From Taiwanofungus camphoratus (taxonomy: Eukaryota > Basidiomycota > Agaricomycetes > Polyporales > Taiwanofungaceae), in contig CP021220.1 of assembly GCA_003999685.1 (NCBI GenBank), positions 3,534,001 through 3,598,000 on the forward strand: a DNA stretch of 64,000 nucleotides, given 5' to 3'. Under the pieces are notes generated by a model, which did no database searches, was not told where the DNA came from, and worked only from the letters and a program-made list of their open reading frames with translations. The position numbers and the translations under genes are program-made. Shown piece by piece: positions 45,856-52,599 of the stretch. Position 1 is the stretch's first letter, and each line of letters opens with the position of its first letter.

Positions 45856-48800
45856 ATGTTCTTTGCTGGTTCGGATGATGAAGGTGAACCCGGTAGTGCT
45901 CTTGTTGACAAAGAGCAGCCTCCAGTGCCAGTCGTGGAGAGCGGTCGGGACCACCAGAAAGCTCTATTCTTCGCTGACAGTAGTGACGAAGAAGAGAATT
46001 CAAGAGTTGTCCTTTCTCGGATACCTCTAATAGGAGATACCCTTGAGGATGATGCAATGGGTCTCGTTGAGGGCGTTGAGCTTCCGCAGCCCGAGGAAGT
46101 TCCTCGAGCATCCAGCATCTCCAGTGTGTCTTCTGGCCATGTCCAACGACTACCTTCGCCTGCTTCACTTGTCAGATCTGACGAACCTCCTCAGAAGAAG
46201 CGACGGCTCTCTCCTGCTGGTACTGACTCACAAGTTCAATTTTCATCAACATACCTGGGGTCCTTCCTCGTTGGGAATGCTTGGAGTACGGTCCGGGGCT
46301 CAGGCTATGTCAAACCTGGAGACGAGATATATATTGAGCGGGACACTTCCGAGGGCCTGGCGCCGAACGATTCAAAAAGGTCGAAGACCAAAGATACAAA
46401 GGGCAAGGGTGGCAAGAAGCAGCTTAACATAGCAACAATGTTGAGAGTTCAGCCCTCAAAGGCTATAAAAAAGAAGCAAGACCTTGTTGTCCGGTTGACC
46501 AACAAAAAAGGATTTGGTAAAGTTATCTTCTTCACTGTTTCAAGTATATCTCACATTGGAGGCAGAGTTTGGTCGGCTGCCTCAAGATGTTTCAACATGG
46601 GTCTCAAAGCTCCTCGATCTTGGTCAGTTTTGGCAGATCAAAATTGAAGCCCACCCTAATGAATATTTTAGACATCGTCGATTTCCGTGGTAGCACCATG
46701 ATAGATTGCCCTGCTACGCTTCACTCTGGTGCAGATCTTATTGTCTCTCTCTCAGTGTACATCAAAGCATCCGCTTTTAAACCTTCGGGCACTTCATCGG
46801 ATGAAAAAGTGCGAGTGATGTTCAACGAAGGCCAGGAAACGGCTTCTGAGCAGTTGCTGCGCGAGCGTAAAGCTTCTTTGCTCAGTCTATTTGACATCGT
46901 CGGCCTGAAGCCTAGAAAAGGAAATGGCTTTGCTCGAAAGCCTCATGGCGATTTGGACCAGAAAGATCTGGAGCTACTGACTCAACGAGCTGCGACGAGG
47001 GGGAAGAAACCCATCAAAACAGAAATTGTCGGCGATGGTGAAGAAGTAGAAGTAGAAAGCGAGGGAGAGGAACTATCTGACAATGAACTGAATCTCATAT
47101 ACAAGAGGTGTTCTCGCTTCTGCTATTTCTTGAATCCTATGTCTCATCTGAGTTACCAGAGCGCAGCAGAACGATCAGCAATTAGGCGAAATGGAGCCAG
47201 CTAACACGTTCACCCTGAAGCTCCGAGGGTACCAAAAGCAAGCACTGCTGTGAGCGATATCCCCACGTCGTCTGACTTCTCTAGTCAACTAACAATATAT
47301 TAGCTGGATGCATTCTATCGAGATGGGTGCAAGGTCCGCCCGCGGTGAGCAATCCATGGATCCATTGTGGAAAGAGTACGACCATATCGGCTTCATATCA
47401 TGCCGGATTTCTCACCGTCTTCAGATATTTATTTCCACCAGAACCAAGTCAAGGCATTGTTGACTTAACTACTGACGATAAAGTATTCTATTTCAATGAA
47501 TATTCTGGCGAATTAAGCCTTGAATTCCCCAAGGCTGAGAGGAAATGTCGAGGCGGAATACTCGCGTATGTGACACCCTTCTTTTCATCTGTGACACCAA
47601 ACTGACTCTTTTTTTCAAAGTGATGGTAAAACCTTATCAGATTTCTGTTGTCCAAGCTTGCGCTAATTGCAGTCGTCCCGTATGGCGTGCCTGTCTAGAA
47701 AGTGCGTGCATTGTTGTCTAGTGAAATCCCGGCATTGAATGGCTGCGATAGTGGGTATGGGTAAGACAATAATGTTGTCAGCACTTATACAGACTGCTCG
47801 TGGTCGGGAAGAGCCCAGTAAGGATCCAAATGTCAATGGATCATCCAAAAAGCGCCAAATGAAGCTCAACAATGCGTTCCGTTCGATACCCAAGAATCAA
47901 ATCCAGCTGTCCAAAGGACCTGCCGCGACGCTTATTGTAGCCCCCACTTCTCTCCTCTCTCAGTGGTCAGAGGAACTCCAGCGGTCGAGTGAGCCAGGAA
48001 CATTGAAGGTACTCGTCTGGCACAGTCAAAACCGTGTGGACATTGAGGCCGCTGTCGAGGGCGATGATCCCGTCGATGTCGTCATTACATCTTATGGGAC
48101 CCTTGTATCTGAACATTCGAAATCAGAGAGATCGGCTAGCGGTCCAATGTCTCCGGTCTTTGCAAGTGAGTGTTTTACAGTTGCTCTTTTCAAGTCTCAA
48201 TAAAACGTCTTGTCAGTTGAATGGTTGCGTAAGTAGTCGAAGAAACTAGAAGTAGAGTCGCACTTCGTTCAGTGAATTTCTTACTTTATTAGGGGTTGTC
48301 CTGGACGAGGCCCATCACTGCAAATCCAGGCAAAGTAAGACTGCTCGGGCAGTATATGCCTTACGTGCAAGGAGGCGATGGGCAGTTACAGGTGAGTATG
48401 GAACCGCTCTTGGCTCTGTCGTCCATAACCTCTGCTTAAAGGAACTCCGATCGTCAACCGGCTAGAGGACTTGTACTCACTACTGTCAGTCGCAAACAAC
48501 AGCGCTTTTGTTCTTTATGACGTCATTAATATACATCATCGCAGTAAATTCCTCGATTTCACACCTTGGTCGAATTATACATTCTTCCGCTCGTAAGTAT
48601 GTTGTTGTTCTAACTTGGTGACCTGAAGCCCAAGTCTCCATAGATTTATTACCTTACCTTTTCTTGCACGAGACCCCAAGGCTGTCGAGGTAGTGCAAAT
48701 CATCCTCGAAAGCGTGCTACTGCGACGCGAGAAGGATATGCGTGACACAGATGGCAGGAGGATCGTAGAGCTCCCCCCCAAAGAGGTATGAAAGAAATAT

Positions 48801-50381
48801 TTTCCTCCAGAGTGAGGCACTAAATACTGGTGGCATTAGGTGGCCGTAGAAGATTTAGAGTTTTCGCCGTTGGAGAGAAAAATCTATGACTCCTTGTACA
48901 CTGATGCGAAGAGGAACTTCGACCAGTTGAATGAGAAGGGCCTCGTAAGCAGGAACTACACCCACATCCTGGCCATGCTTATGCGGTTCGTATCTAAAGA
49001 CACATATTAAGTTTCAAACTTATCATGTCCGTCTAGATTGCGACGAGCTGTTCTCCACCCGAATCTGGTGCTCTCCAGTGATGATGGTGGCTCTAGTCAA
49101 ACCAGCGATGGGACGGTGGACGTCAATGTTCTGATCAAAAGATTCGGCCAAGGAGATAACACAGCGGGCGATAGCAAGGTCTTCGCTGAAGGTGTTCTTG
49201 CCAATATTGGGCAGGACGAGCCGATGGAGTGTCCTATTTGCTTTGACGTGATGGATACGCCTACCATCATCCCAAACTGCATGCACCAGTGGTATGTACT
49301 CTCGCTATTATGTGTCTTCATGGCGCTGCATCATGCCTTGTATAGTTGCAAAGACTGTATTGTCGCATTTATCGAGACATGCCGTGAGAAGGGCGAAGAC
49401 GGACGGTGTCCTACTTGTTCACGAGGTCCAGTGAAGGTCAGAACTATCCCATTCTGTCACGAGAATTATGTGCGAATGTTATCACCAGGAGAGTGATCTC
49501 CTTGAGGTTGTCCGGACAAAACGAGAGAACGGTGACGCTCCCAGCACCGCGCAAGCATCTCCGTCTACGGTCACACTCCGACGCAATGACTTCCGTTCCT
49601 CAACAAAGTTAGAAGCCTTGATGCAGAACTTGCGTATGTGGTCATTCTCGATTTATCGTACGCCCTCTCAACAACCATAGGACGCCTGAGAGATGAAGAC
49701 CCATGTTTTCGGGCCGTCGTGTTCTCCCAGTTCACTAGTTTCCTCGACTTAATCCAGGTGGTCTTGGACCGTGACTACATTGCGTGGTTCAGGTTCGACG
49801 GCTCGATGGACATCAAGAGGCGCAACGAAGCAGTGTCTGGGTTCAAATCGCCGTCTAGGGAGCCCAAAGTCTTCATTGTTAGTTTGAAAGCAGGTGGTGT
49901 CGGCCTCAATGTCAGTACGTTTTGGTTTCTATAGCTCGAAACGTGCTGATTTGGATCGGCTAGTTAACGAATGCCAATCACGTCTTTATGGTAAGATGAT
50001 ATGGATCTATTCTAAAATATGCTGACGTTATAATTTAGATGGATTGCTGGTGGAATGCAGCGACCGAGAATCAAGGTGAGCCTCGCCGCGCTCCAGATGC
50101 CGAGAATTCTGCATAATTGTTTTCTTAGCAATCGATCGCGTGCACAGAATTGGGCAAGAAAAGACTGTATACGTTAAGCAATTCATAGTCAGTAGAATTA
50201 GCTGCATCTGCGAGTGATGGATGTCTCATCGTGTCTATCGCAGATTTCGGACACAATAGAAGGGCGTATACTGCAAATACAGAAAAGGAAGACCGCTATA
50301 GTCAAGGAGGCATTCCGAGGTAAAGGCGAAGGGGACTCGGAGAGCATTGAGAACCTCAAGATCATGTTTGGAGATAACTGA
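45856..50381 (+). CDS. RAD5: DNA repair ATPase/ubiquitin ligase RAD5 (HLTF homologue)
   Basis: SNF2 translocase plus RING E3 ligase that polyubiquitinates PCNA with Ubc13-Mms2 and reverses stalled forks. ATG 45856 ([16 protein letters not shown]) is the first ATG; the frame upstream opens only with GTG. A short acidic, disordered N-terminus precedes the HIRAN domain ([20 protein letters not shown]). [15 protein letters not shown] leads to the helicase. Motif I, ADEMGMGKTIM, is restored only with two microexons (47621-47625 and 47699-47701). Then come [40 protein letters not shown], the RING finger [22 protein letters not shown] between helicase lobes, [25 protein letters not shown], and [20 protein letters not shown]. 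It ends NLKIMFGDN at TGA 50379-50381. About 18 introns, estimated 1,150 residues; domain order is that of Rad5. Confidence 0.95.
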
Positions 50382-52599
50382 AGACTGAGAGCAGCCAGGT
50401 ATCGGATGCGCACTCTGGTATGTTTTATTATTCTTCGTAATTAATACTACTAATGCACCATCTTAGGTGAATTGACCACTAAAACAACCACGCTTTCTCA
50501 GGAATTAACCCATGTACATTGCTACAAGTCAATGGAGTCAGTTCGAGCATACTGTAATCTCTATGGGCATAGCCAATTTCAAGGCCGAGTTGACTTCTAT
50601 ACAGTTATCAAAGTCCAAAGCATACTGATTCGTCTTGATTACAACTTACCCCCTGTCATCCTTTACAATGTGATAGTTCACCGGTGCGTATTGCCATGAC
50701 AGAATTCTTCGGCGTGGGACGTTACGCCGCGAATAGCTTGGGGGCATGTCCAGTCCGATCCATGTCCACCACTAATGTCCTGGCATCGCCAATTTTCTGC
50801 GTAACTCTCCGCCAGCAGTAGATTATGGAGTGTAGCCCCTACAACAGCATCCACGCAAAAACAGAACCGTGACTCGTTATTTGGGTTTGAACTGCATTCC
50901 ACTCGGTAGCGTTTCCAGGCTTTGTCGCTTTTGTCAACCAGCTGAGCCCAGTTCATGAACTTGCTTGACTTGCAGCAGGTCGAGCTCTAGGAACTCACTG
51001 TTTCGCAGGACCAAACGAATCGAGCTGAGTGGAAGTAAGCGAACCAGCACGCGAACTCGTTTGACTCAAGTGCTACAGATCAACTTGGCTCGACTCCGCT
51101 CGCGATAACAATTATCCAGGCCATGTTGAGGAGCTCGCCTATGATGGAGGTATCCTTTGAGCGAGTCTTACCGGAGTCTGTGACGGACGCAACAGTAATT
51201 CGGAGAGGATCCCTATTCTAGGACGCGTGTCGCGGTCATCTGACGCTCAAGACACGCTTTCATCTCCGTGATAGACGATTGGCATTGTCCCGCAACAGAC
51301 GCCTCCTCTAAAAAGGGACAATCGTGTCTCGAGCTACGAAATGGTTCAGGAAAGTGCCACGGGTATAAAGCTGTGTCCTTGCGCCATGGTTTTGATATAG
51401 GCGCGATCGCATTGACGGCGTGCTCTTATAGACTGTATAAGTTGCTTCGAAGTCATCAAGAGGTTCATCTGACATTTGTCTGGAAGATTCAACGCTACTG
51501 ATGTTACTCTGGACCTAGACGCTAAGGGGTCAGGATCAGAAACGCTCAAGTGATGAAATTGCTGATGGGGAAGGATTACAAGATTAGCAGGTAAATGTTG
51601 CTCTCCCATATTTATGTTATGTGTGATCTGAGTTGTCTGCTGTAGCCTCGGTCGTTGCGACGGATTCTGAGACAGAAGCGATCAAATGAGACAGATATTA
51701 GCGAGAAAGCGCTGTGGTATGACTGGGAGCTTGTCGATTCCTTCAGCGAACAGATTGGATTGATTCAATGATTGATTCTAAACACATTTACTAACGAGAT
51801 TGTGGCTGTAGACTTTGCAGCGATCTGAATGACGTGTTTGACGTTAGAGCGAGTCGCTTCATCTGGTGATGCATAGGCGCAATAAGAATTTCTGCGTTGA
51901 CTAGAAATTGACCATGCGGAATTCTATGGGCCATTTTGGCAGAACGATGACATCATCAATATACCGCGCGTCGCTGTCGTCTAGTTGCCACGAAGTTCAA
52001 CGGATCTGATAAGTTTGACAAGTTTGACATTGTACAATTTGAGCAGCAAACCGCGACGAAATCTCCGGTCAGTGCCTGTCTCATTCACCCAAGCTGCCCG
52101 CTGAAATAGCGCCTCTTCCCTCTTATGCTCCCTTCACATCACCACCACATCCTCCCCCCCTTTTCGCCTACCTTCACCGCAGCTACAAGACTACTCCGGG
52201 ATGGAAAACAGATTCACGAGTCACAATGTCGCCAGTGGGTGTGTTAGAGGCACAAAAATGGCACCGCTCGCAGAGAAGGTACGATCATTGCACCGGCCAT
52301 AAAGAACAGTGTCTTTTTTTGTTCTGAGGTACTGATGTTCATAAAGATGGCAGCAAGTTTCCCCATGGCTGTGTCCAGTGCTTACTCTCACGAAGTCGGC
52401 ATTAACGTTGCCGTCGGCAAAGATGTTGCGGCGGTAAAGATACAGAATGGCCAAAAAGGCCGAGTGATGCCGTAGCTGGTTCGACTGAAGCACGGCAAGA
52501 ACAGGTGATTGAGACGTCTGTATATCTATGTATGCGTTGAAATACAATTACCTCTGATAGTCGAAGATAAAGCGGGACGCAGAACCTGTTAAATCGACA
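50382..52599. other. Gene-poor stretch, 2.2 kb
   Basis: Right after RAD5. ORFs of 70-108 codons lie on both strands, none with a motif. Around 50960-51110 there are several near-repeats of GCTCGA/GAACTCG words (for example GGTCGAGCTC, AATCGAGCTGAG, GGCTCGACTCCGCTCG), giving the look of a decayed repetitive insertion, and AAGTTTGAC is tandemly duplicated near 52010-52030. I could not identify termini, a polymerase or a transposase. Confidence 0.35.

Follow-up and report, generated by a model that had tools for sequence, protein, structure and literature searches.

Putative consecutive microexons of 5 and 3 nt in ATPase motif I of a fungal RAD5 gene, and the frequent interruption of the same motif among SNF2 genes of one genome

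Ultra-short exons are already known. In Fusarium, the CYP621A gene is reported to contain a 1-nt exon with RNA support, which the available text of that paper calls the first for a fungal gene (PMC12940212), whilst a 1-nt exon in the Arabidopsis APC11 gene is described with RNA evidence from both cDNA and reporter constructs (PMC4674806). An earlier note on the DNA analysed here had held a 3-nt exon to be about the smallest known, a view that these two examples render outdated. The P450 genes of the basidiomycete Phanerochaete chrysosporium are described as having microexons that encode 2–10 amino acids, the shortest being 6 bp, with introns of 45–55 bp frequent (PMC1184071), and the Drosophila homothorax gene is described as having a 3-bp microexon that is alternatively spliced (PMC7392893).

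The locus studied here is a RAD5 gene in a 64,000-nucleotide stretch of a Taiwanofungus camphoratus contig (the window, to which all RAD5 coordinates refer), in which motif I of the SNF2 ATPase would be assembled by way of consecutive exons of 5 and 3 nt. As in CYP621A, the ultra-short exons lie in a conserved motif of a fungal gene, are accompanied by short introns and were deduced from phase and motif; CYP621A, however, is an ascomycete P450 gene whose published account has a single microexon, 20 orthologues and RNA reads (PMC12940212), whereas the RAD5 microexons are two in number, consecutive and predicted from the DNA. As in APC11, they are needed to keep the reading frame, although the plant gene has a single microexon demonstrated by cDNA and reporter (PMC4674806) where RAD5 has two predicted ones. 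Small introns, microexons and a basidiomycete host are shared with the P. chrysosporium P450 genes, but in the available text of that report the microexons are not shorter than 6 bp and lie outside SNF2 motif I (PMC1184071). The RAD5 AAA exon has the same size as the homothorax microexon, which differs in belonging to an animal gene and in being alternatively spliced (PMC7392893). By title or start of abstract, we found no report in the open-access literature searched of an SNF2 or P-loop intron hot spot, or of tiny exons of the RAD5 type.

The gene model across the site encodes 1116 amino acids (1116 codons plus stop):

45856..50382, plus strand: RAD5 gene model from start to stop codon, 23 exons joined by hand into a single open frame

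Its domain order according to Pfam is that of Rad5. An N-terminal HIRAN domain (PF08797, residues 139–266, E 1e-9) is followed by the SNF2 ATPase (PF00176, residues 409–800, E 5.4e-60), and a RING finger (PF00097, residues 855–899) sits between the latter and Helicase_C (residues 945–1060). The closest solved structure is that of Kluyveromyces lactis Rad5 (PDB 6l8n, E 2.7e-140), which, compared at the protein level, aligns over the SNF2, RING and helicase parts and in which motif I (GGILADEMGLGKT) reads LADEMGLGKT. With HIRAN, SNF2 and an inserted RING all present, the predicted product is a complete Rad5/HLTF-type SNF2 translocase; the intact gene model, the Pfam domains and the match to K. 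lactis Rad5 thus bear out the RAD5 identity that had been proposed for it. No RAD5 orthologue was found in the viral contigs or the prokaryote genome contigs searched. Introns in the gene are dense and about 50 nt long, and presumably resemble those of mushroom-forming basidiomycetes; the 19 that lie outside motif I measure 47–64 nt. Five hydrophobin matches in the genome are likewise in keeping with a fungus, whilst a GH7 search gave no match either in it or in any control genome.

Motif I is spread over four exons, with three introns falling within eight of its coding bases:

47561..47768, plus strand: motif I, LADEMGMGKT, across four exons (gene model and motif table)
47425..47565, plus strand: exon 6, ending ...GGA ATA CTC GC (motif I enumeration and gene model)
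47566..47620, plus strand: intron A, 55 nt, GTATGT..AAAG, with a branch-like CTGAC beginning 19 nt before its end
47621..47625, plus strand: exon 7, the 5-nt microexon TGATG, part of the sole motif-restoring structure
47626..47698, plus strand: intron B, 73 nt, GTAAAA..CTAG, with its sole CTRAY (CTAAT) beginning 36 nt before its end
47699..47701, plus strand: exon 8, the 3-nt microexon AAA, part of the sole motif-restoring structure
47702..47751, plus strand: intron C, 50 nt, GTGCGT..ATAG, with no CTRAY/YTNAY branch-like site
47752..48165, plus strand: exon 9, beginning TG GGT ATG GGT AAG ACA (MGMGKT) (gene model)
47761..47766, plus strand: GTAAGA, a decoy resembling a 5' splice site within the GKT codons, with the top donor score in 47540–47775
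48217..48228, plus strand: exon 10, a further microexon of 12 nt just upstream of motif II (DEAH) (gene model; aligns with K. lactis Rad5)

When the sequence was rechecked, the three introns and the TGATG and AAA exons reported in the earlier note were all recovered unchanged in letters, position and length. A gap of 186 bases separates CTC GC (to 47565) from TG GGT ATG GGT AAG (from 47752). Within it, TGATG finishes the alanine codon and supplies aspartate and the first base of glutamate, whilst AAA provides the final two bases of glutamate and the first base of methionine. The exon string is CTCGCTGATGAAATGGGTATGGGTAAG with both microexons kept and GCTGATGTGGGTATG with AAA skipped.

How far the motif constrains this structure can be seen by enumerating all structures of up to four introns over 47540–47775 against the target G-[ILVM]-L-A-D-[ED]-x-G-x-G-K-T. 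The motif is restored by one of 839 structures with GT–AG introns of at least 40 nt, by one of 1510 when GT–AG introns of at least 30 nt are admitted and by one of 2607 with GT/GC–AG introns of at least 40 nt. The sole restoring structure in every set is the one with TGATG and AAA, in agreement with the earlier statement that no other junction tried gives the motif. When the outer ends are fixed and up to three introns allowed, there are 57 joins, 11 of them in frame without a stop and one with the motif; skipping of TGATG alone is absent from the 11. Dinucleotide shuffles of the gap offered some in-frame join in 18,628 of 20,000 cases and a motif-restoring structure of any kind in 8 of 20,000, so that an in-frame join by itself is no proof, whereas the restored motif is.

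The same structure is preferred by the Pfam SNF2 profile, which was applied to it and to three of the ten other in-frame joins. It scores 207.3 bits, the three others being 10–19 bits lower: 196.9 with a second candidate 3-nt exon (TGC, 47703–47705), which keeps frame and length and reads LADVLGMGKT, 192.3 with AAA skipped and 188.7 with a 29-nt exon. The seven remaining joins give a motif I with insertions or lost residues. In the protein, the joined DEMGMGKT is identical to the motif of a relative discussed below (L034), and the fourth residue of motif I (E in RAD5) is acidic, D or E, in 20 of the 21 SNF2 genes, under a pattern that also permitted K, H, T and S. Given the unique join and the drop in Pfam score without AAA, both microexons are predicted to be required. 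The observation that two microexons spell the SNF2 motif I is confirmed at the level of predicted gene structure, being borne out by the join, the gene model and the profile score alike.

The splice signals were compared with those of 48 other introns (19 in RAD5, ten at control motifs and 19 at motif I of relatives), a small, hand-made reference set that includes relatives picked by motif and in which lengths range from 47 to 93 nt, with a median of 54, a 95th percentile of 63 and a maximum of 93. All three motif I introns are GT–AG and their lengths (55, 73 and 50 nt) fall inside this range. They had been described as the size used elsewhere here, which is true of introns A and C when set beside the gene's 19 other introns but not of intron B, whose 73 nt exceeds all 19; introns of 74 and 93 nt, longer than B, are predicted in SNF2 relatives. 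The donors of A, B and C stand at the 23rd, 15th and 46th percentile of the reference set and the acceptors at the 38th, 25th and 10th. All score within its range, and the splice sites around the microexons are mediocre, below the average. Intron B contains the two AGs that score highest in the region, the first at 47640 (15 nt from its donor) and the second at 47672. A CTRAY sequence occurs in the final 45 nt of 13 of 41 introns examined. Of the 13 distances measured between CTRAY and AG, one is 6 nt and the rest are 11–32 nt, the 32 nt of intron B being the greatest. The decoys, the weak sites and the positions of the branch sites all count against easy splicing.

To place the locus among its relatives, we turned to the SNF2 genes of the genome (33.2 Mb in 15 contigs), where at least 52 SNF2 matches were grouped by hand into 23 places among the matches listed. 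The 21 genes examined, RAD5 and 20 further loci (L042–L061; C4:2346856 and C6:888258 were left out), were picked by Pfam match and not by motif I. Only three of them (L048, L051 and L057) have a contiguous motif I; in the other 18 it is split by a total of 22 introns, which fall at 13 different sites inside a span of 30 nt. The search pattern was loosened after the first round of loci, and the shortest intron was chosen at L049 and L054, where more than one acceptor is possible. Two relatives are predicted to have tiny exons in the same motif:

L034:300-310 (G000:C2:571200-574200): an 11-nt exon (GATGAAATGGG) that holds part of motif I, in the only restoring structure of 208
L039:552 (G000:C12:819300-821500): a 1-nt exon, G, in an SNF2 gene reading GDDMGLGKT, between introns 459-551 and 553-605, in the only restoring structure of 762

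The gene at L034, which we take to be Rad16-like, has its upstream intron offset by 1 nt from RAD5 intron A; the two may be one and the same, shifted by a base. L039 and L060 are the same gene. For its 1-nt exon, 152 of 5000 mononucleotide shuffles also allow a restoring structure, and chance is thus not negligible; a one-intron reading of L060 as DDMGLGKS was rejected, as it leaves the KTIQVISF frame and hits a stop.

By hand count, the glycine codon before the lysine of motif I is GGT in three of the 21 genes, the first glycine being GGT in 12 of them, and donor-like GGTAAG occurs within motif I in RAD5 alone (47760–47765). The scarcity of GGT before the lysine may mean avoidance of false donors.

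We put at roughly 0.85 the probability that this is a working RAD5 gene in which three short spliceosomal introns in motif I leave constitutively included exons of 5 and 3 nt. Each intron (50–73 nt), being short and having its own complete donor and acceptor, could be recognised singly by intron definition, which is probable because exons so tiny leave scarcely any room for splicing factors at both ends at the same time. Their removal would be sequential, with each step fusing a microexon onto a longer exon, and the joined mRNA would encode LADEMGMGKT. Introns A–C would have been gained one at a time, at a place where all but three of the 21 SNF2 genes examined are interrupted. Constitutive inclusion is favoured because skipping of AAA needs an intron of 126 nt and because retention of intron A leads to an in-frame stop (CTC GCG TAT ... 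AAC TGA).

Two origins had been suggested for the AAA exon, an accident of intron gain or an on/off splice switch. If its inclusion depended on conditions, the Rad5 ATPase would be turned on or off accordingly: skipping does keep the frame, giving GILADVGMGKT (the predicted DVGMGKT was correct, and costs 15 bits on the Pfam SNF2 profile), the weak splice sites could permit alternative use and there is a precedent in the microexon switch claimed, in the available text, for Xlr2 in Trichoderma (PMC11121469). The 126-nt intron that skipping requires, however, is longer than the reference maximum of 93 nt (n = 48), and an interruption shared by 18 of the 21 SNF2 genes can be explained without regulation peculiar to Rad5. 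The idea of a switch gained no support here, and we regard it as very unlikely; an accident is closer to the evidence, yet, given those 18 genes, not an isolated one. It is very unlikely that the cell instead uses the 29-nt exon at 47673–47701 (introns 47566–47672 and 47702–47751), with an altered motif I or as a minor isoform. This join is in frame and free of stops, and the acceptor at 47672 outscores those at 47620 and 47698 (5.63 against 4.2 and 3.51), but its product, at 188.7 bits against 207.3, comes last of the four that were scored with Pfam, and its 107-nt intron exceeds all 48 reference introns. That the AG at 47672 is only 6 nt from the branch-like CTAAT is a weak argument against it, because one of the 13 measured distances is also 6 nt, namely that of the first intron, itself predicted, in the gene with the 1-nt exon.

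Odd gene structures can also stem from bad sequence, and the true genome might be simpler than the assembly. Such an error we judge highly improbable: the three introns have GT–AG ends and recover the exact motif, the remainder of the RAD5 gene is intact, and two relatives have predicted exons of 1 and 11 nt in the same motif. Barely credible is a reading in which B and C are nested as a single complex intron that is removed together with AAA. Stwintrons of this kind occur in fungi, according to the available text of two reports (PMC6616335, PMC9024468), and are recognised by an interrupted splice signal, whereas introns B and C each have a contiguous donor and a contiguous acceptor; without AAA, moreover, the motif becomes DVGMGKT and 15 bits are lost.

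Beyond RAD5 itself, the interruption of motif I in 18 of 21 genes was compared with that of motifs II, III, V and VI in the same 21 genes, 84 cells in all, in windows of 30 nt (33 for motif VI, and 24 for the DEAD-box genes below). The patterns resolved 56 cells, 41 contiguous and 15 interrupted (motif II 5/14, III 5/15, V 1/10, VI 4/17), and left 28 not resolved. Motif III of L054 was placed among the latter, as its one-intron solutions overlap motif II; motif II of L056 was scored as interrupted, its contiguous match holding a stop, and that of RAD5 was scored by the gene model. The difference between motif I and the controls gives a Fisher p of 4e-6, or 0.006 with all 28 other cells taken as interrupted, in a comparison drawn from a single genome, with controls partly scored by hand and with motif I inspected first owing to the RAD5 finding.

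DEAD-box genes provided a further comparison, their 36 matches being sampled as 20 loci, with six near-equal copies, C6:226846 and five further places left out. The P-loop is contiguous in 18 of the 20 (12 by the first pattern, six by a looser one), L080 was not resolved and L066 is the one interrupted among 19 resolved loci. These counts do not support a general P-loop hot spot, and because DEAD-box P-loops have similar G-K-T codons, their interruption in only one of 19 would point to a cause local to SNF2 motif I. The six copies left out are scattered, score from 83.7 to 79.7 bits over profile positions 28–166 and resemble copies of a helicase-carrying mobile element:

G000:C2:3108891, C3:2105946, C4:2081046, C10:1613400, C11:1211114 and C5:1697832: six DEAD-family copies

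We propose tentatively, at somewhat short of even odds, that in this lineage of fungi SNF2 motif I is a true hot spot of intron gain, with a cause local to the motif. As origins of the introns, introner-like repeats were considered and rejected, the 186-nt gap having no second copy in the genome at the search sensitivity used, as was birth by local tandem duplication, since the similarity of intron bodies to their own exon flanks is no higher for motif I introns (mean z 0.18, n = 22) than for controls (0.07, n = 29). If the hot spot is real, almost all SNF2 genes gained introns independently, at many sites within one span of 30 coding bases, splitting motif I into exons down to 11, 5, 3 and 1 nt; with the motif so fragmented, the ATPase of the whole family of chromatin remodellers and repair proteins would hinge on precise splicing at a single place.

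An ATPase active site encoded in part by successive exons of 5 and 3 nt would put exon recognition to one of the more severe tests found in nature, and exons so small are easily overlooked by automatic annotation. It is the hot spot, which may be new, that is, if upheld, more interesting than the microexons themselves. A single genome would thereby offer a natural set of replicates, comprising 21 SNF2 genes, 22 introns spread over 13 sites of motif I and predicted microexons of 1, 3, 5 and 11 nt, with which it becomes testable what draws introns to one motif and how tiny exons are spliced accurately alongside short introns.
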